DNA of 64,000 nucleotides from Diadema setosum (taxonomy: Eukaryota; Echinodermata; Echinoidea; Diadematoida; Diadematidae). Position 1 is the stretch's first letter. Every line of letters begins with the position of its first letter. The DNA is taken from the NCBI RefSeq assembly GCF_964275005.1, contig NC_092694.1, positions 36,405,542-36,469,541 on the forward strand. The letters run 5' to 3'. The position numbers and the translations under genes were made by a program. The notes below the pieces were generated by a model. It saw only the letters and a list, made by a program, of their open reading frames with translations, was not told the origin of the DNA and made no database searches. Below, in pieces: positions 18,891-56,777 of this stretch.

Positions 18891-19360
18891 ATATTTTTGA
18901 TAGTTTGTTTGTGATACGGTATATACATGTACGTATTTTGTGGTGTGGTAATGTAAACTTCGACATTTATTTTGTTACTCATGTACGTGTTTTAACTTGC
19001 CATTTGTTTTGAATGAACTGTGAACCTTTTTTTGATACATGTTTTACTTGAATGAAGTCATGATTAAACAACCATACTGTATATCATAATACGTAGGAGG
19101 TGAAAATTGATACAATGGTATATTCAACTATATGTCATTGCCACCACCACCACCACCATAAACATTACTGAGTTTAATATCATATTACAGTATCTTTCAT
19201 TGTGTTCTCTCTTGATCCAGCGCGTATGGTGACCCGGAAGCAGTTCATATTTTGGTTGGCCAGGTCACAGACACCAGATTCTGAGGGGATGACTGACTGA
19301 AGAATCTGTTGTTGCAGCTCAGGTGTTTTAGCATCCATTCCTGACAGAAATAGTTGCATC

Positions 19361-20032
19361 ATGGAAAATGGAGACAATTTCGAAATTGCTCTACAATCTA
19401 AGGAGGGAGGCCGTATGCTGAGTGAAACTCGTCTCCGCCAGTTGCTTCTCGTTCGCATTTTCCGTAAACGGACTCAATATGGATACTGTGGAACTCAATC
19501 GGCCGCCCTCCTCATGAGCGCCAGACACTTCGGAGAACTGTATAAAGATACCGAGAAACATTCAAATTGTGACGTCAGCGACGTCCCATACCTGGACACG
19601 AATTTGTTCTCCTATGAGCAAACGAAGACAGTGGTGCAACATGACGAGCTGCTGAAAATCGGCCTCACTCTCGACAAGATGCAGTCCCTCCTTGCCGCGT
19701 TCGGTATCCCGTCGAGGCGTTTTCATGCCGACAGGAGCAGCGTGGATGAATTCCGCGCACAGGCGATGGCCGCGCTTTCCCACCAAGATTCCAGCCTGGC
19801 CGTTCTCGTCAATTTCGAGATGACGACGATGTTGGACGGGAAGATGAAGACGTGCGGTCACCACAGTCTCTTGGGAGCTTACCATCCAAACACCGATCGC
19901 TTCCTGCTACTCGATACGTCCACATTTTACTCTGACAGGTGGCTGAAACCCGAGGAAATATTTCTAATGATGGACACCATGGATACCGAATCAGGAATTA
20001 AAAGGGGCTTTCTAATTGTAGGATCGTTGTAA
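19361..20032 (+). CDS. PCS: Phytochelatin-synthase-like protein, copy 1
   Basis: The frame encodes 223 residues in one exon. The fold signature is that of the phytochelatin synthase catalytic domain, a papain-like gamma-glutamylcysteine dipeptidyl transpeptidase that makes metal-binding phytochelatins from glutathione in the cytosol. Cys43 lies in GYCGTQSAA, His167 in CGHHSLLGAYH and Asp185 in FLLLDTS. The His-Asp spacing of 18 equals that of the Arabidopsis triad (Cys56, His162, Asp180), and the C-terminal DTMDTESGIKRGFLIV matches the family's domain end. The protein stops there, lacking the variable C-terminal domain of plant and nematode enzymes and resembling the short bacterial forms. 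Such short forms can favour glutathione hydrolysis, so synthase activity is not assured. The ATG at 19361 is the first in frame. A poly(A) signal follows at 20199. Gapless alignment links it to copy 2. Confidence 0.9.
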   Translation: MENGDNFEIALQSKEGGRMLSETRLRQLLLVRIFRKRTQYGYCGTQSAALLMSARHFGELYKDTEKHSNCDVSDVPYLDTNLFSYEQTKTVVQHDELLKIGLTLDKMQSLLAAFGIPSRRFHADRSSVDEFRAQAMAALSHQDSSLAVLVNFEMTTMLDGKMKTCGHHSLLGAYHPNTDRFLLLDTSTFYSDRWLKPEEIFLMMDTMDTESGIKRGFLIVGSL

Positions 20033-25518: not shown

Positions 25519-25729
25519 TCATACGGCTAGCCTTTAAACAAGGCGACTCGCTCTGCGTGCCCCCGTATAGCGCGTTTACCCCACAAACCTGTTCGCTGGC
25601 CGGCGAGTGGAGCGAGCCTTTAAACAAGGCGACTCGCTCTGCGTGCCCCCAAGATGGCGTAAATATTCCTCGAGGAATGATAAACGCCAAATAAATTCAA
25701 ACAACAACAACAACAACCCCGTATAGCGC

Positions 25730-25737
25730 GTTTACCC
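25730..25737. repeat. Left target-site duplication of the P-type transposon
   Basis: GTTTACCC lies immediately outside the left TIR and recurs exactly at 35134-35141 outside the right TIR. Eight bases is the duplication length known for P elements. Confidence 0.95.
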
Positions 25738-25768
25738 CACAGAACTCTTACACACATAGAAGAATCAC
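25738..25768 (+). repeat. Left 31-bp terminal inverted repeat of the P-type transposon
   Basis: An exact reverse complement of 35103-35133. Similarity stops sharply at base 32. Confidence 0.95.
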
Positions 25769-25837
25769 ACCCATTCACAACCCACTGAGCTCGGTGTCGC
25801 CACCGCGCACCCCGGATGTGACGCCTCAGTGCACACG

Positions 25838-25859
25838 CCGCCATGTTGCTTAGCAAAAC
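25838..25859. repeat. Subterminal inverted repeat of the P-type transposon, left
   Basis: ccgccatgttgcttagcaaa and the two bases after it match the complement of 35033-35054 at 19 of 22 positions. It lies about 100 bp inside the left end, against about 80 bp inside the right end for its partner. Drosophila P also has subterminal 11-bp inverted repeats. Confidence 0.7.
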
Positions 25860-26775
25860 CTCCGCAGCTCCTCGCGAGCGGTACGGTAAACTCACTGATC
25901 GGACAGTATGACAGCCGCTATAGCCCTTGATATTTACTTGTACTTGTAAACTGTCAAACTGGTACTTCTCAATCCAGCGTTGACCACAGATTCATGTACT
26001 CATTTATATTATTTATTTCACACTCTTCCCTGAAAGTTGTCTGTATTGAAACAGTTGGGTTTTTTTCCTCTTTCGGATAGATCTATTTGACTTCGGAGAC
26101 GTGATCTGCTTTGGTATAAAATAATCCAAGACGCGCGCCTGTCCTTGTCTGTGTCCTGCCATTTTTCTGATACCCCTCTCAACCCTATGTCTTGCATTTT
26201 TCCCCTCCAATGATATTGTAAGAAGATGTGTGTTCGTGCTTTTGATTTTTCTCCCATTAAACAGGTCAAATTAAATTTCCAGTCAGTCCAGTTGTAAAAG
26301 TCAATGATTTGTGGATATGATCATGTAATACGTCTTCCCCATCTGACATATACTCGTTCAACATATTAGAAATTTGGAAGACAACACTATCACCTTAATT
26401 ATCCATATTCCTGCTGTTATCATTATCATTAGTAGTGTGTAGTACAATGTAGTTATCACTATTGCACATATTGGTATAGGAAGCAATAGGCCTATAGGCA
26501 TATAAAACACTGTATATCTATACACATGAAATAAAACAAATCGAGTTCATGCTAGTCACCGACAATTTATTTCACCACACCAATTGTTCAGCGATTTGCA
26601 ACAACACTTGAGAAAGAGCGAATCGCTCAAAAATTTGTGTGCTGTAAATAAATTGTTGGTGATCAACATGAACTTGGTTCCTGTTTTACTTTCGATATCA
26701 TGATATTGCTGCACCAACATGTAGACTACCCGGTACTCAATCAATATATACATACCTATATACATATGTATATAC

Positions 26776-26780
<5 letters not shown>

Positions 26781-26847
<67 letters not shown>

Positions 26848-26857
26848 TGTATAATTA

Positions 26858-26902
<45 letters not shown>

Positions 26903-26938
26903 TCACACACTCACACACACACACACACACACACACAC
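26781..26938. repeat. (TA)n and (CA)n microsatellites inside the P-type transposon
   Basis: Two long TA runs separated by about 25 bases, followed by a CA run. Confidence 0.95.
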
Positions 26939-27269
26939 AAGCATGAACTCCTTTCAAGATTGTCTTCCCACAAAAAAAAAACAGGAAGTTAAGTTGAACA
27001 GAGTTAATTTTCCTGATTTTTTACAATTTATTTGACATTTATCAAGGTCAAAGGTGATTGCTGAGAATCAACCACAGCACAGTGATATACCATTTGCTTG
27101 AAGTACACGTACCATTATCATACCTAATATGGTGGCTATAATCACAGGCAGTACATGCGTCAGGAACATATTATGCAAATGATAGGCAAGACCACCAGTG
27201 TCGCAAATTTGTGACAACTATTGTAATCACAAAAGCAAATGCATATACATCTATAATGGACATGCAATA

Positions 27270-28670
27270 GGGCAACAACATAAAATCCATGAATAATGAA
27301 CACTGTCTGGCAAGAATATCTAAGGCAATACATCAATATAGTGCACAATTTCACTTGCCCTTGATAGCTTCAAGCGTGATTCAAAAAGAAAATCCTAATG
27401 AGTGTAAAAACGCACTATGGTATAGTATGAAAACATATTGTGTTGATCCGCAAGCACTATGGCAACATAAATCTACGAATTATGGACACTGAAAAGAACA
27501 CCAAAGGCATTCCTGGCAACAGTATTACAGGCAATACATTTGTAAATGTAAGATTTCACTTGTACTTGTTAGCTCAGCATGATTCCAAATTAAATCCTTA
27601 GTAATGAGTTTAACAAAAAACTATCCCATACACTGTGTAGTATGAAAACATAATTTGGTAACAACATGTAAGCAAAACAAGTATCGCAGATATATACAAC
27701 AAATGTTGTATATCACGAAAGCAAATGCCTGTATAATCAACTATCATGCAATATAGCAACAACATAAAATCCATAAATAATGAACACTGTCGGGCAAGAA
27801 CATCAAATGCATTCTTGGCATAACAATATCAACTAAAGGCAATACATGAACATCTGTATAAAGTAAGATTTCACACGCACCCGTTTGCTTCAAACGAAAT
27901 TCAAAGTGAAATCTAAAGAGTGTGAAAACATACTACACTGTATCTCAAAGTATGTACATGTAGGCAAAACAAGTGTCACAAATATGACAACTACATGTAT
28001 TGTATATCATGAAAGCAAATGCATGTACAATCACTTAGCATACAATATGGCAGCAAAATAAAACCATGAATAATGGACACTGGCAGGAATATAAACAAAA
28101 AATATCAAAGGCAATACTGTATAATCCAAGATTTCACTTGCACTTGTTCGCTTCAAGCGCAATTCAAAATGAAATCCTTATGAGTATGAAAACATACTAT
28201 GGTATAGTATGAAATGTTAACGTGGCAACAATATGTAGGCAAGACAAGTCTCGCAAATACATGCATGACAACTATTGCATATTGCGAAAGCAATGTTTCA
28301 TGAACATGCATTAAATTGGCAATGTGGCAACAACATAAAAATAAATCCATGAATAATGGACACTGTCTGGCAGGAAATATGAAAGGCATTCTTGGCAATG
28401 ATAACAAAGGCAATACATTCATATAGTGCAAAATTGCACTAAACAACATGTCTTGCTCTTGTTAGGTTAAGCACCATTTAAAATGAAATCCCACAATATA
28501 GTTTGAAAGCATGATGTGGCAACAATATGTTGGCAAGACAAGTATCGCAATTATGACAACTATTGTATAATGCGAAAGAAAATGCATGAATAATGAACTA
28601 ATATGCAATACTGGAGTATGGCAACAATACAAAGTGTGAAATCCATGAATAACGGACACATTCAGTTAGT
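27270..28670. repeat. About 290-bp diverged tandem repeats inside the P-type transposon
   Basis: The landmark ccatgaataatggacactg recurs in diverged form at about 27290, 27478, 27775, 28065, 28351 and 28647. That is four spacings of 286-297 bp and one short unit of 188 bp. Other shared blocks recur in the same order within each unit: ggcaatacat, tttcacttgc, gtatgaaaacata, ggcaagacaagt, and gaaagcaaatgcat. No open frame spans the units. The array lies downstream of the transposase stop codon. Confidence 0.85.
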
Positions 28671-28974
28671 GATGTTTTCCACCATTAATTTTGACAATCT
28701 TGTTTATCCTTTACAAAAGCTTGACACTTTGACAACCATAGTCACCTGTAAGGCATACAAATTTGTACTTGTAAGAAATTTAATGGGAGAAGAAAGTTTG
28801 GTGTACATCATCATTGCAATTATTTAAAATGCTGATCACAACTCAAAGAAGCAACTTATGATATTTTGCCAGTGCATCAGCAAGTGCATCATTAGGAAAA
28901 ACAGTTCAGAATATGTAGGCAAAATCGGGCATGTACACTCTCTCAAAGCTGCGCTGCTATCAAGTCCTCAATTT

Positions 28975-31900
28975 TCAATGATGTCTAAACAGGATCAGCT
29001 TCGATAGGTCCTTTCGAGTAGTTGGTCCGCTGATAACTTCAGTCATGTGTTTGGCAAGGTAGTGCATTCTAATAGTCAGGTAAGAGGCGGCCACTTTCCG
29101 TATCAGAAAGAAGACATGGTTGCAGTCTGCTGGGGCATCGTACATATGATCTGAGAGCGAGGTGAAGATGCTACTTTGCCCAACTTCTCCTAGGACTGCT
29201 GAGCATATGGCATGAGGGAGGTGGCATGACTGAGGTAGTTTGCCTCTGGTTACCTTCAGAAGTCGCTGCAGACACATTTCAGTTCTTTCGCACACTTTGA
29301 CAACATCTCGTGCGGGTCTCACCAAACCACCCCTGTCTTTCTTTCCAAGAAGTCTCCCATTCATGACTTCTCCAGTAGTGAGGGCCGCTGCACATTCTTC
29401 GCACGACAAAGTTCTCTGTGTCATTTTAACTGCGTAACCAGCAATGTACGGGATGACAGCTTTCTTGTACGTAGACAGCTCATTTATGTTCGGTATGTCT
29501 GCGTAGTCATGGTCTGTCATCATGGGAGTTCTTGTTGACAAGTCATACTTGCGAATCAGGTGCTGGTCTGAGTCCATGTTGGGTTCGATGAGCTTCCTTC
29601 TTCCACTTCCCACATGCAGAATGGTTGTACTATCTTGAGGTGTACAATTCCCCCCCATGCCTTGGATCTCATGCCTGATGAGCATTTTTCTGTACAAGGT
29701 GGAGAACTCACGAGCTGTGGGATTGTTGTTGCATCCAAGAGCGGACCTGACTGCACAAAAGAAAAGCTCAAGATGATCTTGGCTCATCTTGTATGTGAGC
29801 AAATACTTTAATTTCGGACATTCTGCACACACCAGCTTGTCGTACAGATGCTTGGTGCTTGTGATCGCTGAAAGGAAGCCTATGAACGGGGTCTTGCGGG
29901 GCGTTTCATGCATTCTTTTGCCATGTGCATCTGTGATGGACTCGAGATATTTGTATGTTCTTTCCACGAAGGGTTTCCATTTGTGTTCATTTTCTGGGCG
30001 GAGGGCAGCTTTGGTATTGCGAGCGATGGGATTGCGTGAGTTCAAAATATCAAAAAGGTGGTCGATTGTGCGAATGAAATGCACTGTAGCTCTGCATCCC
30101 TTGAATTGTGGCAAACCTTGCTCTTCCAGAAATTCCAAAGCATCGGCAACACTTGCACTGAGGGTCTGAGCTGCAATGTTCACCTTCATCTTTTGCTTTC
30201 GCCATTGCATGTGTGGGTTCCGTAGTTTATTTCCAAGTCGCATCCCTTCATCTTCTTGAAGCTTGTGGAGTTCCTTGATGTAGTCCCATCTGATGTTGTT
30301 TCCATCTCCATCTTTGAGGATTCCATTTGCCGCCAGAGTGTTCCGCATCAACTTCAGCATATGACATACATCTAGGAAAACGCTCACTTGATGATCCGGC
30401 TTGAGTGGATGTGGAAAGGAAGGGACAAGGTTGGGCATTTTCATGCTAGCTCCCAATGTTTCCAGCATTGTCACGTGACATGATGGCCCATCACACGTTA
30501 GGGATTCTATCCAAACCCCAACATCGGCTAATTTCTCCAGGCATTGCTGAACGAGGTTAGCACGATCCTTTCCAGACATTCCACGAATGAGAAAGTAACC
30601 AACTGGCAGCTTCCAGTTGGAATTAAGTGGAACAACCATGAACACCAGGGCTTCTGTTGCAAGAGGATTTGTATCATCCTCGCACTCTGTTCCTATGTCG
30701 ACGTACCCATGAACCCTCTTTCCATCCCACTGAACATGTTGTTTAATGGCCATTTCGTCAAGCATGAGACCACATACAAGTTCTTGTCCTCTCTCCTTTG
30801 ATTCCTTCACTTTCTCTTCCAGCGTACTGAAGGCTTCTGCTGTGAAGCCTGGCTTCCCGTCAATGTTACTGTACCACTTACGGATAACAGAAGGATGTGG
30901 CAGCTGTAGGTTGAAGGTCTTTCGTACAAATCTGTATGCTTTGGCTGAGTAAAAGTTCAACGTCAGCGCAAAGGCACGAAGAGCCGGTGGATAATTTTCC
31001 CTCATGGAAACATCTTTGTCTTTCGCTTTGACGAGTCTCTTCATTATTTCTCCAGGCACATCACAGGTTTTCTCCAGCATTTCAAGGCCACTCTCTGAAA
31101 GCATGTTCTTCTTTTTCAATGTACTCACAACCTCCTGCAGAGATATCACCTTTTTCTTTAGTCTGCGTGCTCTGGTCTGAGTTGTCTTCAGGCGCTTCTT
31201 CATGTTTGACATGTGGTCATACATCTTATCAAGTCGACGTTTGATACTTCTTGGGCTGTCACGAATGCTGTAAGTATGATCATGATGAGAGTTCAGCTGC
31301 TTAGGTGGAGCTCTGGGTGCAATTAACACAGATTCATCGCTGCCTTTTGTACCAGGTCCAATGGCTGTTGAAAAATCACTGCTTGTAGCTGGTGGATCAC
31401 AAACTGGGTCTTCTGGTGTGGTTGAAAGCTCATCAAGCATCAACGAGGGGGAGTTTTCTTCTTGCTTGGGTTGTGTGTCTGCTTGGACAGAGTTCCGAGG
31501 AAAAGGGGCCTTGCGTTGTTTGACTGTCTGTGAAAAGATCAATAAAACAACAAACAAAGTAATTATATAGTTCATTTCTTCGTTACAAACAATTCTGATC
31601 AGTGTTATATTGAAATGATCCATCAATAACAGCATACTAAATCCTTCAATAAGTTTTAAGTATGGGCAATGACAGAATGTCTTTTTAAAACAATACAACC
31701 AGTAAGTTACTGAATAAAACAAAATGAAAGAGTACACATCAATTTTTACTGGTTACTAAGAGCACTTTTTTCTTTTTCAAACTGATGTACAGGGCATATG
31801 TCTGCACTTCTGTTTTCATGTCAATCTTTCCGTGAAGTTTAGTCCACTTCCTATTATATCATCCAGCATAATATAATACTTATATAATGCAGGTGTGTGT

Positions 31901-32906
31901 GTATGTGTGTGTGTTCAATTGGACAAACTTTTGAAATGAAAAAAAAAAATCTTCAGCAAACACTTCTCAATTATCTACATGATGAAAATTTACTGGGAAT
32001 TCTATATTGTAACACTGCATCACAGTAGCAAAATATTGTGTACATTAAATAACAATGAAAACATGAATATGCCCACTGCCTCAGCGACCATCAATAATAG
32101 GAAGGGCTTCACAGTAATGACTTGCCATCAACAAATCATGCACATACATGTATGTGTACACAAGGTATAATGGGGTGCACGAAATGGCCCCTCAAGTATC
32201 AGAGTACATGTTTCAAGCCATTCAACATTTCCCCTTTCTTTCTCTCTTCAAATGTCTGTATATGCAGAAATATGTTTTAAATTTGAGTGGTGCTGTATTG
32301 TGACATGTTTGTTACAATGAAGCAAAATATGTAAATGTGTATCATTATTTGTTTATCTTTTGCCACACTCCAAAAGTTGTATGTATCACAATCTATCGTA
32401 AAGACCAAAAAAAACAACAACAAACAAACCAAAAACCAACAACAATAACAACAACAACCAAACAATAAAATGTTCATGAGCAGTCCAAATAACCGTACAG
32501 CTGTATATATTTTTCTTCCATTATCAATGTGTACCAAGTAAAACAAACACAAACATTCAAAGTACAGGTAGCTAGGGCATGATAGAAGCTTGAATCAAGC
32601 TCACCAGCATGGCAAGAACAGAAAAACTATTCCTTCTCTCATTGGCTCATGCATTTGGAATAGTTTGCTTGCATGCAGTCTTGTTTGTTTGCCTCAGTTA
32701 CTTGAAGCCCCTGGTGGACCCAATTTACAATTTTGCAATGAACTTGAATTTTGTGGATATTTGAACCCAGTGTAAGACCAGAAGAAAAATTTATTGACAT
32801 GCAGGGTGTATGTTGATGCAACCTATTGCAAAAAAAAAAATAATAAAATAAAAAATGAAATACAGTGTAAATGAATAAAAAAAAAAAAAAGCTTTCATGT
32901 TCTGGT

Positions 32907-32992
<86 letters not shown>

Positions 32993-34935
32993 TAAAAACC
33001 CCAAATGGCAATGGATCTAAAAACACTTTATCCTGGCGAGGAAAGCGCATGATTTAGAAACAAGACACCAAACAGGTTAGTCATCGCATTCTTCATCAGC
33101 GACCAGGATGCGATGTGATGTTAGATTAAAATCCGTTTCTGAAGCAGACATACACACAAGGGTATACATCTGCTCCTGGTCGGACGGATTTCAAAACTAA
33201 CCTGCTTGTGATGGAATGCGTCTAGACTGGTAGTTGCTGCCACAGTGCATGTTAACCGCGCAGTGTGTCTGTGCACGTTAGGCATAGCAACGACGCATCC
33301 ATGGACTGGTTCCCTCCATGAAGAGCCAAAGATGAAAAAGATGAACCACACACCTCCGGCCCCCAAGGAGACATCCCAGCCAGTAGTTGTGCCTTGTCCG
33401 TGATGGAATACTGTACATCAGACTTTCCTGATAGTCAACGGTCTTTCCCGTAGTCAATCAGACAATCAGACACCAAACAGGTTAGTCATCGCATTCTTCA
33501 TCAGCGACCAGGATGCGATGTGATGGTAGATTAAAATCCGTTTCTGTAGCAGACATACACACAAAGGTATACGTCTGCTCCTGGTCGGACGGATTTCAAA
33601 ACTAAAATTCAAATTTCAAACACCAAACATGCAAAATTAAAATTTGTTCTTCTGCACGTACCCTCATGAGATGTTTTGGAAAGTTGAATAAAGTTGGTAC
33701 AGCATCTGCCCGCAGCCTTGTTGTCTGGCCGGTGCGATCGAAGTACTTCTCTTCAAAGTGGTCAGAACACAAGGTAGAGTATGGTTTGGGAGTCCAGTGG
33801 TCTCTTCTCATGTTCACAATCCATCTTTGGCAAAGAGCAACACCCCTTCTTGGAAATCTAGGATTTTTAACACACAGAGAACATACGATATATGTGAAAA
33901 TTATTACCATATCAGATTTGTATAGACCTCATATTCATAATCATAAAACATGTGTACCTACAACTAAGGCAAGCATGATGATGATTGCATGCATGGACAT
34001 GGTCCATGGAAAGCTCCTGATAAGATTAATAACAAGGCACCGGCAGCTGACAGTCTAGATCTATATATATCCAATAATTACCCCTAACTCTGCTGTAAGA
34101 AGAGACTTACAATGTTACATGTCAGCGCAATAACAGTTAGTGAGTTTATACGCATCGGTCAGGTCTAGCTAATTCAGACAGAAGTAAAAATAAACAGATA
34201 AAGGTTACCAGAAATTCGGCAGAAACTAGAATCTACAGACTCAGTACTGACGTGACACTGACATTACCTTGGCTTGTTGTATAAAGTATAATTTACTAAC
34301 CGTTAGTAGACTTCTAAGTTCTAGTTTGAGTAATATACTAGAATAGTTAAATTTATTCAGTATTATCAATATCATTGAAACTTCAGTCTACCCTATAAGT
34401 ATGTTCGTACTACTACTACTACTACTACTACTACTCTACTTTAATACTAGAATACACAGTCAGTCTAGACAATCTAGTATCTAACGACTGTTGTCACTGA
34501 CACTGGTACTGTGACTCTATAGGTAGACAAGAATAAATCTACGTGTAAAGTTTACACCTACTAAGCTCAAATTTACATAAATAGATAGTACTTTTTCCAT
34601 GTACAAAGCTGTTTGCCCCAACACACAACGTACAGAGTGTAATATAGCCCCAGGGCCAAAATTACTTGATCTTTTTCATTTTGGTAGTTGGTGGTATGTA
34701 AACAGATCGACGGCAAACACAAAATCCAGTGTCTGGGACTACCTTTGCTACTGCGCTCACAAGAAAAAGCCAGCATACGACCGATCCGCCTAACGTTAAT
34801 TTTAACGTTACTTGGGGAATTAATTTACTTGTTATTCTCATCATGGCTTGGTGTCCGTCAAACTTACCTGTGAAATGTTTTTCCACATCCTTTTGTCAAG
34901 CGATTTGTGCAGTTTACAGCCGCACAATACGGCAT
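28975..34935 (-). CDS. THAP-domain P-type transposase (THAP9-like), three exons
   Basis: Exons 34868-34935, 33662-33857 and 28975-31527 join to about 938 residues. Exon 1 ends CACAG|GTAAGTT and exon 2 starts after cctag, rebuilding Arg23 of FHRFP. Exon 2 ends before GTACGT and exon 3 starts after ttttcacag, in phase 0. Residues 1-80 form a THAP zinc finger (Cys4, Cys9, Cys53, His56, then AVPTLF), which in this family binds transposon ends. Basic coiled-coil-like residues follow at about 185-230. Next is the RNase H-like core with Asp345 (LMLDEMA), Asp434 (LTCDGPS) and Glu675 (QDHLELFF). Between these lie FLDVCHMLKLMRN and TIDHLFDILNSRNP, typical of P transposases and THAP9. The frame is intact throughout. 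It should catalyse cut-and-paste transposition in the nucleus. Host domestication is an alternative, but the matching TIRs argue for a resident transposon gene. Confidence 0.93.
31528..33661 (-). other. Intron 2 of the transposase gene, with direct repeats
   Basis: The intron contains a (TA)n(TG)n tract at about 32911-32990 and two direct copies of a 137-140-bp sequence (33064-33203 and 33470-33606), about 405 bp apart. These are nearly identical and share ggttagtcatcgcattcttc and gctcctggtcggacggattt. The sequence between the copies is non-coding, so an inserted repeat or duplication is likely. Confidence 0.75.
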
Positions 34936-35032
34936 TTTAATGCCTCGCTCAGGGTCGGAACGTCAGAAAAACACGGTACAACATGCAGTCACTGTATGTG
35001 GATGTCGTCTGCTGGGATTTGCAAGCAAAAAA

Positions 35033-35054
35033 GTGTTGCTAAGTAAAATGGCGG
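35033..35054. repeat. Subterminal inverted repeat of the P-type transposon, right
   Basis: The partner of 25838-25859 in inverted orientation. It lies between the right TIR and the transposase start codon, where a promoter or transposase-binding site would be expected. Confidence 0.7.
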
Positions 35055-35102
35055 ACGTCACGTGACAATGAGTCGAGCGACGGCGACAAGTACGGGTGGC
35101 GA

Positions 35103-35133
35103 GTGATTCTTCTATGTGTGTAAGAGTTCTGTG
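35103..35133 (-). repeat. Right 31-bp terminal inverted repeat of the P-type transposon
   Basis: An exact reverse complement of 25738-25768. Confidence 0.95.
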
Positions 35134-35141
35134 GTTTACCC
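35134..35141. repeat. Right target-site duplication of the P-type transposon
   Basis: GTTTACCC, identical to 25730-25737. It is followed by cacaaacctg, which continues the foldback arm. Confidence 0.95.
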
Positions 35142-35895
35142 CACAAACCTGTTCGCTGGCCGGCGAGTGGAGCGAGCCGCCTTTATCCACTCGTTCGATC
35201 AGGGATGTGTACTTTTGTCGTTGTTGTTGCTTTATATTCTTTGACAAATTTGCGTACAAATTTGACGCAGAAAATACACACGGCACCAAGGCAAGCCGCG
35301 CGCGCTTGCTAACAAATTTGTACGCAAATTTGTCAAAGAATATAAATTTGTTAGCAAGCGCGCGCGGCTTGCCTTGGTGCCGTGTGTATTTTCTGCGTCA
35401 AATTTGTACGCAAATTTGTCAAAGAATATAAAGCAACAACAACGACAAAAGTACACATCCCTGAACGAGTGGATAAAGGCGGCTCGCTCCACTCGCCGGC
35501 CAACAGGTTTGTGGGGTAAACGCGCTATACGGGGCACGCAGAGCGAGTCGCCTTGTTTCTCGCCGGCCAACAGGTTTGTGGGGTAAACGCGCTATACGGG
35601 GGCACGCAGAGCGAGTCGCCTTGTTTAAAGGCTATCATACGGCTTGTCGCGTACACTGAATCACCCCTACGAGTAAAAAGAGTCCAGAAGCTAGACTAGG
35701 GTCTCCGGTGCGGCTGAACCTGACACGTGAAAGAGGCGGTATAACTATACGGAGAGCGGCATCCATAGCGACCAGAATACCGATTCGTTTTGTTGTGTGT
35801 GTGTGTGTTTTTTTTTTCGTCGATAAATGAAGTTTTTCTCAATAAAACAGTTACAATCAAAGTTTGTCGATACTAATGCGACTTATCATGGGAAT

Positions 35896-41242: not shown

Positions 41243-42261
41243 AATCTCCTAATTGGTATTACCACATGTGAACGTATAGCTATCGGGATATCTGGTTCTG
41301 AAGTGATGTAGATCTGTCTCTTCTTGGGAGGGGACAGACATGGTTTGTGACAGAAGGGAGCGAGCCCACCCCAGCTGAGAGGAAGTAGTTTTGCATGAGA
41401 GTGAGATGGGTAGTATAGTTCTACTCCCTATAGGAACATATAAGGCAAGGAAAAAGCATTACGTGTACGTGCCACTTAAAAGTGAAAAGTGCAATTTCCC
41501 ACCGAGCCTGTGGGTGAAAGAAATTATGTTTATGACCATAATAGTCCTGCAGCTGATATACGGTATGTATACATGGTGAGTATATTTAAATTGACTATTA
41601 TGTGTACACCAAAATATCCCGCCTCTGTGACTTTTGTATTCTTTTCTATTTCATATCCAGCCTAAAATACTAGTATTTCGAACCTCCGTTCCTTTTCCTG
41701 AATTGTCTTTTCCTCAACTCGCAATATTGAGCATGTATTTATGCACACAATCGCATGGGAAATATTGCGATACTGATTATGTGTATACCAAAATGGACCG
41801 CCGCTGTGGCTGGAATATACACAGTGTACTTATACAACAAAGGTGTTCCACTTCATCTCCATTTAACTAAAACTCTCCTAACCTCGGTTTTTTTTTCCCT
41901 CACATTAAAAGCAGATATACTGTAGTACAGCTGTTGTGTGGGACAACGAGGACACACACGGTTGGCATGGCCCTTTCTGCCAGTGCTGTTAAGACACACG
42001 CAAAGGGGTAGAAATGAGCACTCGTGCGGGAACACCGTTGCCCGAATCCTTTATATCTGATCGATTCGAGTTTTTCTATTACTTTCCAATTACCAACGCT
42101 CAGTTGGACGTAAATGAGTCCATCCATAAACCAAACTGGAAGGCTATCTTCTATTCACACCGGAAGGACAAGGTATATCGCTGGGGTTAGTGAGTAGGTC
42201 TGCATGACTGCAGTCTCAATCTCCTCATTGTCTGCGAGTGTCTGTACAAGCTGGGACCACC
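41243..42261. other. Upstream region of phytochelatin-synthase-like copy 2
   Basis: No additional coding exon was supported. Copy 2's 5' untranslated leader is presumably at the right end. A short repeated phrase (gtgtacaccaaaat, gtgtataccaaaat) occurs at 41600 and 41780. Confidence 0.4.
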
Positions 42262-42960
42262 ATGAACACTGATCAAAATGATGATATCCCACTTAACTCC
42301 ACGGAGGGGTTACGACTCTTGGATGAGGCGAGTTGTCGACAAATGCTTCTCGTCCGCATCTTCCGCAAGCGGCACAAATCGGGATACTGTGGCGCCCAAT
42401 CTGCAGCCATGCTCCTGAGCGCCCGACATTTCGGACAGAAGTATCGTGACCCCACGCAGCACGCTGATTGTGACGTCAGCGACGTGCCGTACGTAGACAC
42501 GAACCTGTTTTCCTACCCGCAGACAACGCTTGTGATGGAGGAAGAGGCGATGGTTAGCAACGGTATCACCCTGCCAGAAATGGAGACACTGCTGGAATCG
42601 CACGGCATCTCATCCAAGCGTGTTCACTGGAAGGATAGCATCCCGGAAGAGTTCCGTGACCTGGCGATGGCGGCGCTTTCACACGGAGATTCCAGCCGGG
42701 GCGTGCTCGTCAATTTTGAATTTGATATGATGTGGCAAGGGAAGAACGTGACGATAGGTCATCACAGTCTTCTGGCTGCCTACCATTCCGCTTCCGACCA
42801 GTTCCTGTTGCTCGACACATTCGCTAGCGCTCAAGATAGGTGGGTGCGGACGGAGAAGATGTTTCAAATGATGGGAACTCTCGACAAAGTGTCCGGTTTA
42901 TTCAGAGGGTTCTTGATCACAGGAACGTGCGATACTCCCAAGGGAATTGTAGAAAAATGA
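42262..42960 (+). CDS. PCS: Phytochelatin-synthase-like protein, copy 2
   Basis: The frame encodes 232 residues in one exon. The start is the ATG at 42262 in an accaccATGa context. The frame is open 24 bases further up but has no ATG there. Numbering is gapless with copy 1 through the catalytic domain: Cys43 in GYCGAQSAA, His167 in IGHHSLLAAYH, Asp185 in FLLLDTF. A conserved CDVSDVPY-DTNLFSY block (residues 70-85) is shared with copy 1. The family converts glutathione to phytochelatins or hydrolyses glutathione S-conjugates in the cytosol. As in copy 1, the plant-type C-terminal domain is absent, replaced by the short tail TGTCDTPKGIVEK. An AATAAA starts within six bases after the stop. Divergence at many residues with an intact triad suggests both copies are under selection, though that was not calculated. 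Confidence 0.9.
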   Translation: MNTDQNDDIPLNSTEGLRLLDEASCRQMLLVRIFRKRHKSGYCGAQSAAMLLSARHFGQKYRDPTQHADCDVSDVPYVDTNLFSYPQTTLVMEEEAMVSNGITLPEMETLLESHGISSKRVHWKDSIPEEFRDLAMAALSHGDSSRGVLVNFEFDMMWQGKNVTIGHHSLLAAYHSASDQFLLLDTFASAQDRWVRTEKMFQMMGTLDKVSGLFRGFLITGTCDTPKGIVEK

Positions 42961-54533: not shown

Positions 54534-54853
54534 ATGTCCCGGTCTGTCGCAGTTTTCGTTTAAAATAATGTTTTGCCAGTCCGAATTTAAAACTATAATC
54601 ACATCACATAGCTAGTGTATGCCAATACCTGCTAAGAAACCTCGCAAAGTGAGATCTAGGAGTTAAAGTGACGTTTGAGCTTTGGAATTTAAATTTTCCC
54701 TAATATGTCATAGTTAGGGATTTCTTTCTTTTTTCAGAATTCTTCTACTGAAAAGCTCGCAACGAGAAATTAGACCGAATTAAAAGAGTTGAGGTAAAGG
54801 GTTTACTTGCTGCTTTACATTTCCCTAATGTCATGCTAAACAAAAGGGATTTG

Positions 54854-54884
<31 letters not shown>

Positions 54885-54903
54885 TGCTTCAGAATACTTC
54901 ACA

Positions 54904-56777
54904 ATGTCTTCACTGGAACAAGCTGTCACGAAAAGTCTGCAATGTCCACTGTGTATCGATCTTCTGAAAATGCCGAAACTTCTGTCATGCGGTCACACTT
55001 TCTGCAAGAACTGCCTCTGTCTCCTTCAAGCTTCAGGCGGGAATCCCAATCATATTTCCTGTCCACGGAGGTGAAAGAAGGGAATGTTTCGAACCTTAAG
55101 ACTAACCTTCATGTCCAGTCTTTGGTAGACGAGATGGCAGGAGCAATTCAGTCATGCACGATATGTACCTCGGCGGATCGACCTAGCGCAAAGACCTACT
55201 GTCAAAATTGTAAGGTTTACATGTGTGATGAATGTCGCGTGAAGCACAATGAGTGGCCAGCACACACCATCCACCAGGTGGTCACCGTTGAAGACATCAA
55301 ACAGGGGAGGGCGCTCATCAAAAAAAAAAAGGTTTTATGTCCAAGTCATGACCAGGACGAAGGAGAGCAGTACTGTTCGGAAGTCTGCCTTGATTGCCTG
55401 AAAATCATGTGTATGAGGTGTCGAATGCTGGATCACGAGCGGAACGGTCACGAAGTCTTGAGTAACGCCGAGTACAATAAAAGAAGATTACACGAAATGA
55501 ATGGGCTAAATGAACAAAGTAAAGTTTATAAAGATGATTTACAAACTTTCATGAAGAACGTAAGTCAGAAGAGAACAAAAACCTTCGCACATATCGAAGA
55601 GAAAAAGAAAGAAATCAATAAGACTTACGACGAATATGTGAGGAAACTGACGATGAGGAAAGAGAAACTGATTCGTCAACTTGAGGAACAGAAGACGCAG
55701 GCAAAACAAAGGTTCAAGGATATGTTAGAGGATACTGAGGCGTGCATTTCAAGAATCATAGGTTCCCTGGAATTGACAAGCAAGAGTTTAAAGGCGCCGC
55801 TAGAGGGCGGCACAATCGCTATGCACCAGTCACTTTTCGACGAATTGAAATTTGCGATTGGGAAAGATAAACCAGATCTAACTAACGCCAGTTCTCTCGA
55901 GGCACGTGTAAAATGTCTTCAATTTAAATCAAACCCAACGAGAGACGAGCTCCATCTTGGCAAACTTCTGAGAGTAGAGTGGAGACTGGTCGTGGAAAAA
56001 GAACTTTATAAAAAGGATTGTATGAACAGAATGGTTGCAGCGCCTACCGGTCCAATAGCGGTAGGATTTCGCTTCGGTGGGGTTTATTATTACACGCGAA
56101 TCGGCGAGCTATCGCCGACAAGTGAACATGAGGACATAAAAGTCAGCACATTAGGGTTTCTCTCAGATGGTCGCTGCATCGTTGTTGACCTGTCAAACAA
56201 CATATTACTTTTTGCTGTAAACGGTGAAAAGTGTGATGTAGAATTTGACACTATGACGCACAGTGAGGGCGGAATTTGCGAAGTTTCAGTAGACGGTGAA
56301 GATCGCATTTATGTCAGCTACAGGAAAGCTCAGCTGATCAAAGTCTTTGTGAAGTCAGGAGGTAAGGCTGTACATGAGATGCCTTGCAAAGACTACACAC
56401 CTCTACAGCACCACACGTTTAAATCAAAGAAGGAGCTTGTCATGAAAACCCATTATAACTCCGTCAGCGTAATCGACGAGTTCGGTACGGTGAAGAGCAC
56501 CGTCACGAAGGATGCCGACATCTACCGTGGTTACCCAGCCGTTTGCAGCGATGACTCCATCTTGATAGCCTGGCTTAATGTGAAAGAAAATCTCCTTAGC
56601 ATCGATCATTACACTGCTGACCTGAAGCACAATAAAACGCATTTTGATGGTCAGCGCATTGACATCCCTGTGAAGCGAAAATGGTTCAACCTTCAGGAAT
56701 TTAAATGTACGGGGGACGTTGCTTTTAGTACTACCGACAAACTCTACATCTTTCAGAAATCAATAATGGAAGTATGA
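54904..56777 (+). CDS. TRIM-type RING/B-box protein, frame shifted in the RING
   Basis: A strong acceptor (ttttttgcttcag) precedes the ATG at 54904. Residues 14-53 form a C3HC4 RING (Cys14, Cys17, Cys29, His31, Cys34, Cys37, Cys53), which in this family confers ubiquitin-ligase activity. At the eighth zinc ligand the frame ends (stop at 55072). The rest continues in the next frame with LKTNLHVQSLVDEMAG, the normal post-RING linker. Then come two B boxes (CTICTSADR..., CPSHDQDEGEQYC...), a coiled coil of about 110 residues, and a C-terminal region of about 290 residues, possibly a beta-propeller. From ATG to stop is 1,874 bp, one base short of a whole frame. Neither frame supplies the last RING Cys. 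It could be a young pseudogene, a RING-less B-box protein from another start, or an assembly error. Confidence 0.8.

Follow-up and report, generated by a model that had tools for sequence, protein, structure and literature searches.

A structurally complete, potentially autonomous P-superfamily transposon with a THAP9-type transposase gene in the sea urchin Diadema setosum

Within a 64,000-nucleotide stretch of the genome of the sea urchin Diadema setosum (hereafter the window; RefSeq assembly GCF_964275005.1, contig NC_092694.1, positions 36,405,542 to 36,469,541 of the forward strand), positions 25738-35133 comprise a P-superfamily transposon of 9,396 bp, which we interpret, with a probability of about 0.93, as a potentially autonomous element of the cut-and-paste type. 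Computed evidence of several kinds underlies this interpretation: the anatomy of the element, an intact transposase frame with its characteristic residues, a fold match, dispersal in multiple copies flanked by target duplications, paralogous empty sites, an amplified deletion founder, a target-site bias, and past purifying selection. Dispersed copies, deletion derivatives and empty sites document the past mobility of the family to which the element belongs; the window copy itself, to judge from its sequence, may still be able to move. The element extends the known P superfamily and is not a new kind, P elements and THAP9-type genes being widespread in animals, echinoderms included.

Boundaries and terminal structure of the element

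The element is bounded by terminal inverted repeats (TIRs) of 31 nucleotides, with CACACA at both ends, that are exact reverse complements of each other (31/31) and constitute the sole matches in the window when three mismatches or fewer are allowed (none expected from 100 shuffles). Outside each TIR lies the same 8-bp sequence, GTTTACCC, as an intact target-site duplication. Internal to the TIRs is a 22-bp subterminal inverted repeat whose arms, at 101-122 bp (left) and 80-101 bp (right) from the respective ends, match at 19 of 22 positions when counted from the letters; its score of 14.5 compares with a maximum of 12 in 500 shuffles. The left arm, CCGCCATGTTGCTTAGCAAAAC, is a candidate binding site for the THAP domain of the transposase. 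In an alignment of 18 of 20 left-end and 17 of 21 right-end loci from the genome, from which six rearranged or truncated loci were excluded, this repeat could be recognised in each of the two subfamilies described below, at the left end as well as the right; the left end of locus L012 has lost most of it. A preliminary description of the window had proposed these terminal features, together with a three-exon transposase of about 938 codons that keeps all THAP zinc ligands and the D-D-E residues, and had called the whole a structurally complete P-superfamily transposon. Its account of the anatomy was borne out in nearly every detail, the predicted transposase gene included. Coordinates of all features are collected in Table 1.

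Transposase gene and predicted protein

Splicing of the three minus-strand exons in silico, across two introns with GT/AG borders, yielded a protein of 938 amino acids; this exon structure is predicted, and splicing in vivo would presumably follow it. The following Pfam domains were recognised (E-values in parentheses): THAP (PF05485; 5.5e-13, exon 2 frame), Tnp_P_element (7.9e-23), RNaseH_N (2.5e-48), GBD (5.2e-50), RNaseH_C (2.1e-18) and THAP9_C (1.4e-5), the last barely passing its cut-off (25.2 versus 24 bits). All four C2CH ligands of the THAP domain (C4, C9, C53 and H56) are retained, and in alignment the triad D345, D434 and E675 corresponds to D230, D303 and E531 of the Drosophila P transposase. 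Eight residues contacting guanosine triphosphate (GTP) are listed for the Drosophila enzyme (PMC7776569). All eight are kept in the window protein, as K522, K536, V537, S545, F580, D581, D672 and N584 (the last equivalent to Drosophila N447), and this conservation suggests that the urchin transposase may likewise use GTP.

Searched by sequence with a threshold of E <= 0.001, the PDB returned the Drosophila P transposase alone (6p5a and 6pe2). An AlphaFold2 model of the exon 3 product, built from 38 sequences, had a mean predicted local distance difference test score (pLDDT) of 76.3 and a predicted template-modelling score (pTM) of 0.70, with residues 1-88 below 50. Compared with known structures, the model aligned to 6p5a with an E-value of 2.3e-19 and a template-modelling (TM) score of 0.83 by target length and 0.45 by query length, the next structures, Hermes, Transib and RAG1, being far weaker. 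As modelled, then, the fold encoded by exon 3 matches the structure of the Drosophila P transposase.

Dispersed copies and their target sites

The genome (912.68 Mb in 102 contigs), whose mitochondrial COX1 translates without stop codons in the echinoderm code, was searched with each end of the element; the resulting copy counts are lower bounds. The left-end search listed 25 matches, representing at least 23 left ends (counting that of the window) that extend to the TIR, after exclusion of the window's right TIR and of a match at 27.1 Mb on contig C13 that covers the inner part alone. The right-end search listed 22 matches, representing at least 20 right ends, with the window's left TIR excluded and two matches on C6 counted as one interrupted end. 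Pairing of ends gave at least 18 two-ended copies of 3.7 to 17 kb (lengths of those on C5, C19 and C1 being derived from end coordinates); for a further copy on C9 the left end is present and the right TIR was not found. Matching 8-bp flanks occur in 17 of the 18 two-ended copies, and these 8-mers are mutually different in all 17. Members of the family were able to integrate in the urchin lineage, as these matching duplications show. On C11 (at 9.4 Mb; C11:9436114, L018) and C19 (C19:32733582, L069) the outermost 13 nucleotides of one end are doubled, the 8-bp duplication lying outside the doubling.

The same 17 target duplications, with that of the C5 copy included, reveal a compositional bias: 12 begin with G, 10 have T in second position and 11 end with C. 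When 8-mers were drawn 20,000 times from the flanks, not one draw attained the observed 12 GT occurrences in 34 half-sites. Nor did any draw attain the observed mean match to the Drosophila P target motif, GTCCGGAC (PMC3276498), of 3.1 of 8 positions, as against 1.8. Target sites of the family thus favour GT...AC, resembling those of Drosophila P.

Over the first 900 bp (gaps excluded; L008, L012 and L020 left out beforehand), the window copy has a mean identity of 96.2% to nine copies of its own subfamily, which share 96.7% among themselves. A second subfamily of seven copies is 84.2% identical to the window copy and 98.1% identical internally; no match to exon 3 inside its members appeared among the matches listed. 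Miniature elements were considered and set aside: no opposite TIR was found within 1.6 kb of element behind each of 20 left-end loci, and the two-ended copies are all at least 3.7 kb.

Three paralogous empty sites are present within the window itself; they are other copies of the repeat that received the element. Inverted units of foldback type occur in the target repeat (window 35134-35640), along with a hairpin at 35263-35400 whose arms are 60 bp long.

Such a distribution bears directly on the possibility that the window holds a domesticated THAP9-like host gene that lies by chance between repeats. The match to THAP9_C, the purifying selection described below, and the single intact transposase copy found among the 49 of 105 candidates scored would each be in keeping with a host gene. 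Yet such a gene would be expected to occur once and to have neither TIRs nor target duplications, and the locus instead has exact TIRs and an 8-bp duplication, belongs to a family in which different target 8-mers flank nearly every two-ended copy, and has a broken sister copy on C18. On grounds of copy number, duplications and empty sites we reject domestication, which we consider extremely improbable. The preliminary description had held that a unique TIR pair, together with orthology of the gene at a fixed locus in related species, would point to domestication and had looked ahead to further copies, internally deleted derivatives and empty sites; the TIR proved to be multi-copy and all three were found, the empty sites being paralogous ones.

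Deletion derivatives and selection on the coding sequence

Five copies, on C17, C3, C14, C77 and C6, share a deletion (class A) that removes the element from about 2772 to about 7250 and with it exon 3. A similar short filler occupies the junction in all five; it was read from both sides in four copies, and in the copy on C3 the filler and the right side of the junction are covered. The five reside at unrelated target sites, and this combination of a shared deletion with differing sites implies that a single founder gave rise to these copies lacking exon 3 by amplification in trans. Intron 2 of the window copy contains a direct repeat of 138 bp (33063-33200 and 33468-33605, 97% identical), which is single in these derivatives.

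Class A copies keep both THAP exons without exon 3, and Drosophila KP provides a precedent for a short P-encoded repressor (PMC7776569), so that KP-like, THAP-only repression by the derivatives may be asked about. Differences in exon 2 (88/1948, 4.5%, summed over pairs of the five derivatives) are nevertheless as frequent as those in intron 1 (438/9427, 4.6%); no constraint that would keep a THAP-only frame was seen in the five copies. In addition, among seven right-end loci of the subfamily with 29-nucleotide TIRs that include exon 1, six share a 9-nucleotide in-frame deletion in this exon, the alignment of the seventh (L055) ending before that position. The deletion falls in what we take to be a conserved stretch of the THAP domain. 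A repressor role is unsupported by these data, and we regard it as very unlikely.

Selection on the transposase itself was assessed by comparing exon 3 of the window with that of the broken copy on C18. Over 836 codons, divergence at synonymous sites (dS) was 0.12 and at nonsynonymous sites (dN) 0.036, a dN/dS ratio of 0.30, which indicates that the transposase was constrained for part of the time since the two copies separated.

Present state of the element

Several observations weigh against the interpretation of the window copy as a potentially autonomous element. Exon 3 was recovered at 74% identity or more at four loci (the window, C18, C22 and C9) among the 49 of 105 candidates scored, and within that set it is intact in the window copy alone. 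We can only infer which copy supplied the transposase for the derivatives; as one intact copy was found, the amplified ones may go back to a different copy that has since been lost. Sixteen of 20 left-end loci have a TIR of 29 nucleotides with CACA, one CA less than the 31 of the window; the TIRs of L008 and L012 are also 31 nucleotides long but differ in spelling, and that of L010 has 33. The C5 copy shares 9 bp of flank, leaving the frame of its duplication uncertain, and the copy on C77, with a damaged right TIR, has no matching flanks. Palindromy within single target sites is not above chance (P = 0.57). The copies on C22 (L008) and C9 (L012) share a deletion inside exon 3 (breakpoints 343/2113), which was entertained as a second amplified founder and then dropped as evidence of transposition on account of their similar outer flanks: beyond the left ends, 30 bp of the two copies are alike at all but one base, and about 0.8 kb of flank aligns at 85%. 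By sequence, this pair is more likely a single insertion duplicated with its flank.

The element may also be complete in sequence and yet dead, having lost expression or mobility. The closest copy with transposase sequence is a broken one, its exon 3 being 93% identical, no near-identical full-length sibling having been found among the same 49 candidates, and the mean left-end divergence of 3.8% from the nine copies of its own subfamily places amplification at some time other than today. An intact 938-codon frame with every catalytic, GTP-contacting and zinc-binding residue retained, identical TIRs and an undamaged duplication are the features that oppose such inactivity; we judge the chances of it to be about even.

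For the potentially autonomous transposon that we favour, a mechanism can be proposed. By means of its THAP domain the spliced transposase would bind the subterminal repeats, and it would pair the two transposon ends; the D-D-E site of the RNase H domain would then cut, with GTP positioning the transposon end, and insertion would follow at GT...AC-like sites, with a stagger of 8 bp. Relatives with internal deletions but both ends preserved were also mobilised by transposase of the window's family. A stronger proposal, namely a live, integration-competent THAP9-type P transposon whose transposase moves both itself and its derivatives, with the GT...AC choice kept between deuterostome and insect P elements, we put forward tentatively, as possible but on present evidence rather doubtful.

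Table 1. Features of the P-superfamily transposon and its surroundings (window coordinates)
Feature	Position	Strand	Basis
Paralogous empty site; 58/58 match, 58 of 99 joined-flank bases, spanning the junction	25561..25618	+	joined-flank alignment
Left target-site duplication GTTTACCC	25730..25737		flank comparison
Left 31-bp TIR	25738..25768	+	TIR search
Left subterminal inverted repeat arm CCGCCATGTTGCTTAGCAAAAC	25838..25859	+	inverted-repeat score versus shuffles
Diverged repeats, spacing about 200-300 bp, non-coding, downstream of the stop codon	27261..28666		repeat families D5-D16
Exon 3: P-type helix-turn-helix, RNase H N, GTP-binding insertion, RNase H C, THAP9-type C-terminal domain, stop codon	28975..31527	-	splice model, Pfam, structure model
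Intron 2, containing the 138-bp direct repeat	31528..33661	-	splice model
Exon 2: second part of THAP domain	33662..33857	-	splice model, Pfam
Intron 1	33858..34867	-	splice model
Exon 1: start codon and first two THAP zinc ligands	34868..34935	-	splice model
Right subterminal inverted repeat arm	35033..35054	-	inverted-repeat score versus shuffles
Right 31-bp TIR	35103..35133	-	TIR search
Right target-site duplication GTTTACCC	35134..35141		flank comparison
Second paralogous empty site, inverted; 91.7% over 96 columns, 8 gaps	35447..35534	-	joined-flank alignment
Third, shorter paralogous empty site, inverted; 91.5% over 47 columns, 4 gaps	35559..35601	-	joined-flank alignment

Relatives and comparison with known systems

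Interrogation of public genomes and metagenomes retrieved 548 related proteins that match residues 140-925 of the exon 3 frame used as query. Named sources among the 120 of these that were listed include a sea spider, a gorgonian, a tick and a hagfish; a second search added fish and molluscs. Repbase contains sea urchin P elements. THAP9-type genes have already been reported in echinoderms (PMC13228809), and with this number of relatives the novelty that the preliminary description attached to a whole P element in this kind of animal was overstated. In literature searches for P elements in urchins, echinoderms or Diadema, no Diadema P element was named in the titles and openings of abstracts listed.

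A tree of 40 rows comprised the window protein, 34 of 158 proteins (P0001 being a COX1 translation), four of 12 urchin paralogue frames and the Drosophila 6p5a fragment; human THAP9 was absent from it. The window protein grouped with P0002 and P0003 (98/93 and 100/100), then with P0004 and P0005 (100/100), and apart from a clade of fish proteins named THAP9. The end branch of the 6p5a fragment is 9.58 long, and we make no claim of position relative to Drosophila P.

Likeness to Drosophila P extends to perfect 31-bp TIRs, 8-bp duplications (both lengths equal, as had been noted), subterminal inverted repeats and internally deleted non-autonomous copies, as well as to a transposase combining THAP, helix-turn-helix and an RNase H domain with GTP-binding insertion, the D-D-E triad and GTP contacts (PMC7776569); the GT...AC target bias is likewise common to both (PMC3276498). 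The urchin element differs in having three coding exons as against four ORFs (open reading frames) and an extra THAP9-type C-terminal domain by Pfam, and the two transposases are 21% identical over their structural alignment. It is also longer, at 9.4 versus 2.9 kb, as had been remarked; the contrast is less striking beside the autonomous P elements of Anopheles gambiae, which at 4,178-7,545 bp (4.2-7.5 kb) are shorter than the urchin's but bring it near the known range (PMC1562414). Anopheles gambiae P subfamilies are similar in their TIRs of 27-31 bp, perfect 8-bp duplications and P-derived non-autonomous families (PMC1562414), whereas the two-ended urchin derivatives are not miniature. Zebrafish Pdre2/THAP9 resembles the urchin element in its full-length THAP9-type gene, TIRs, 8-bp duplications and deleted relatives (PMC10983969), and is unlike it in having 13-bp TIRs, 12-bp subterminal repeats and 400-bp spacers (PMC7776569). 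THAP-B of the sea cucumber Holothuria glaberrima shares the THAP and Tnp_P_element domains but is described in terms of genes, the term "inverted repeat" being absent from that text (PMC13228809).

For the THAP9-type branch, the element would offer a complete natural pair of substrate and enzyme from outside the insects. The zebrafish protein was reported to excise and not to integrate (PMC10983969); the urchin family integrated in the past. Specialists may value a THAP9-type enzyme that is intact and comes with its natural ends, and also the Drosophila-like target bias; the element could be tested as a tool, and could serve in the study of how the target choice of P elements is encoded.

Other P families and neighbouring sequences

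Other P families occur in the same genome. Loci L027 and L028, on C18 and C6, are 99.1% identical over 5 kb and have an open frame of 767 codons; L030, L031, L033 and L035, on C6, C3, C2 and C8, are 92-98% identical in long alignments. Both may be younger than the family of the window element. The diverged repeats at 27261-28666 were not reported as tandem in a check for tandem repeats. Phytochelatin-synthase-like frames (PF05023) flank the insertion on the plus strand at 19301-20032 (E = 1.3e-23) and 42208-42960 (E = 4.8e-24), so that the P element sits between paralogues. Further along, an open frame of 645 codons on the plus strand at 54840-56777 encodes a B-box zinc finger.

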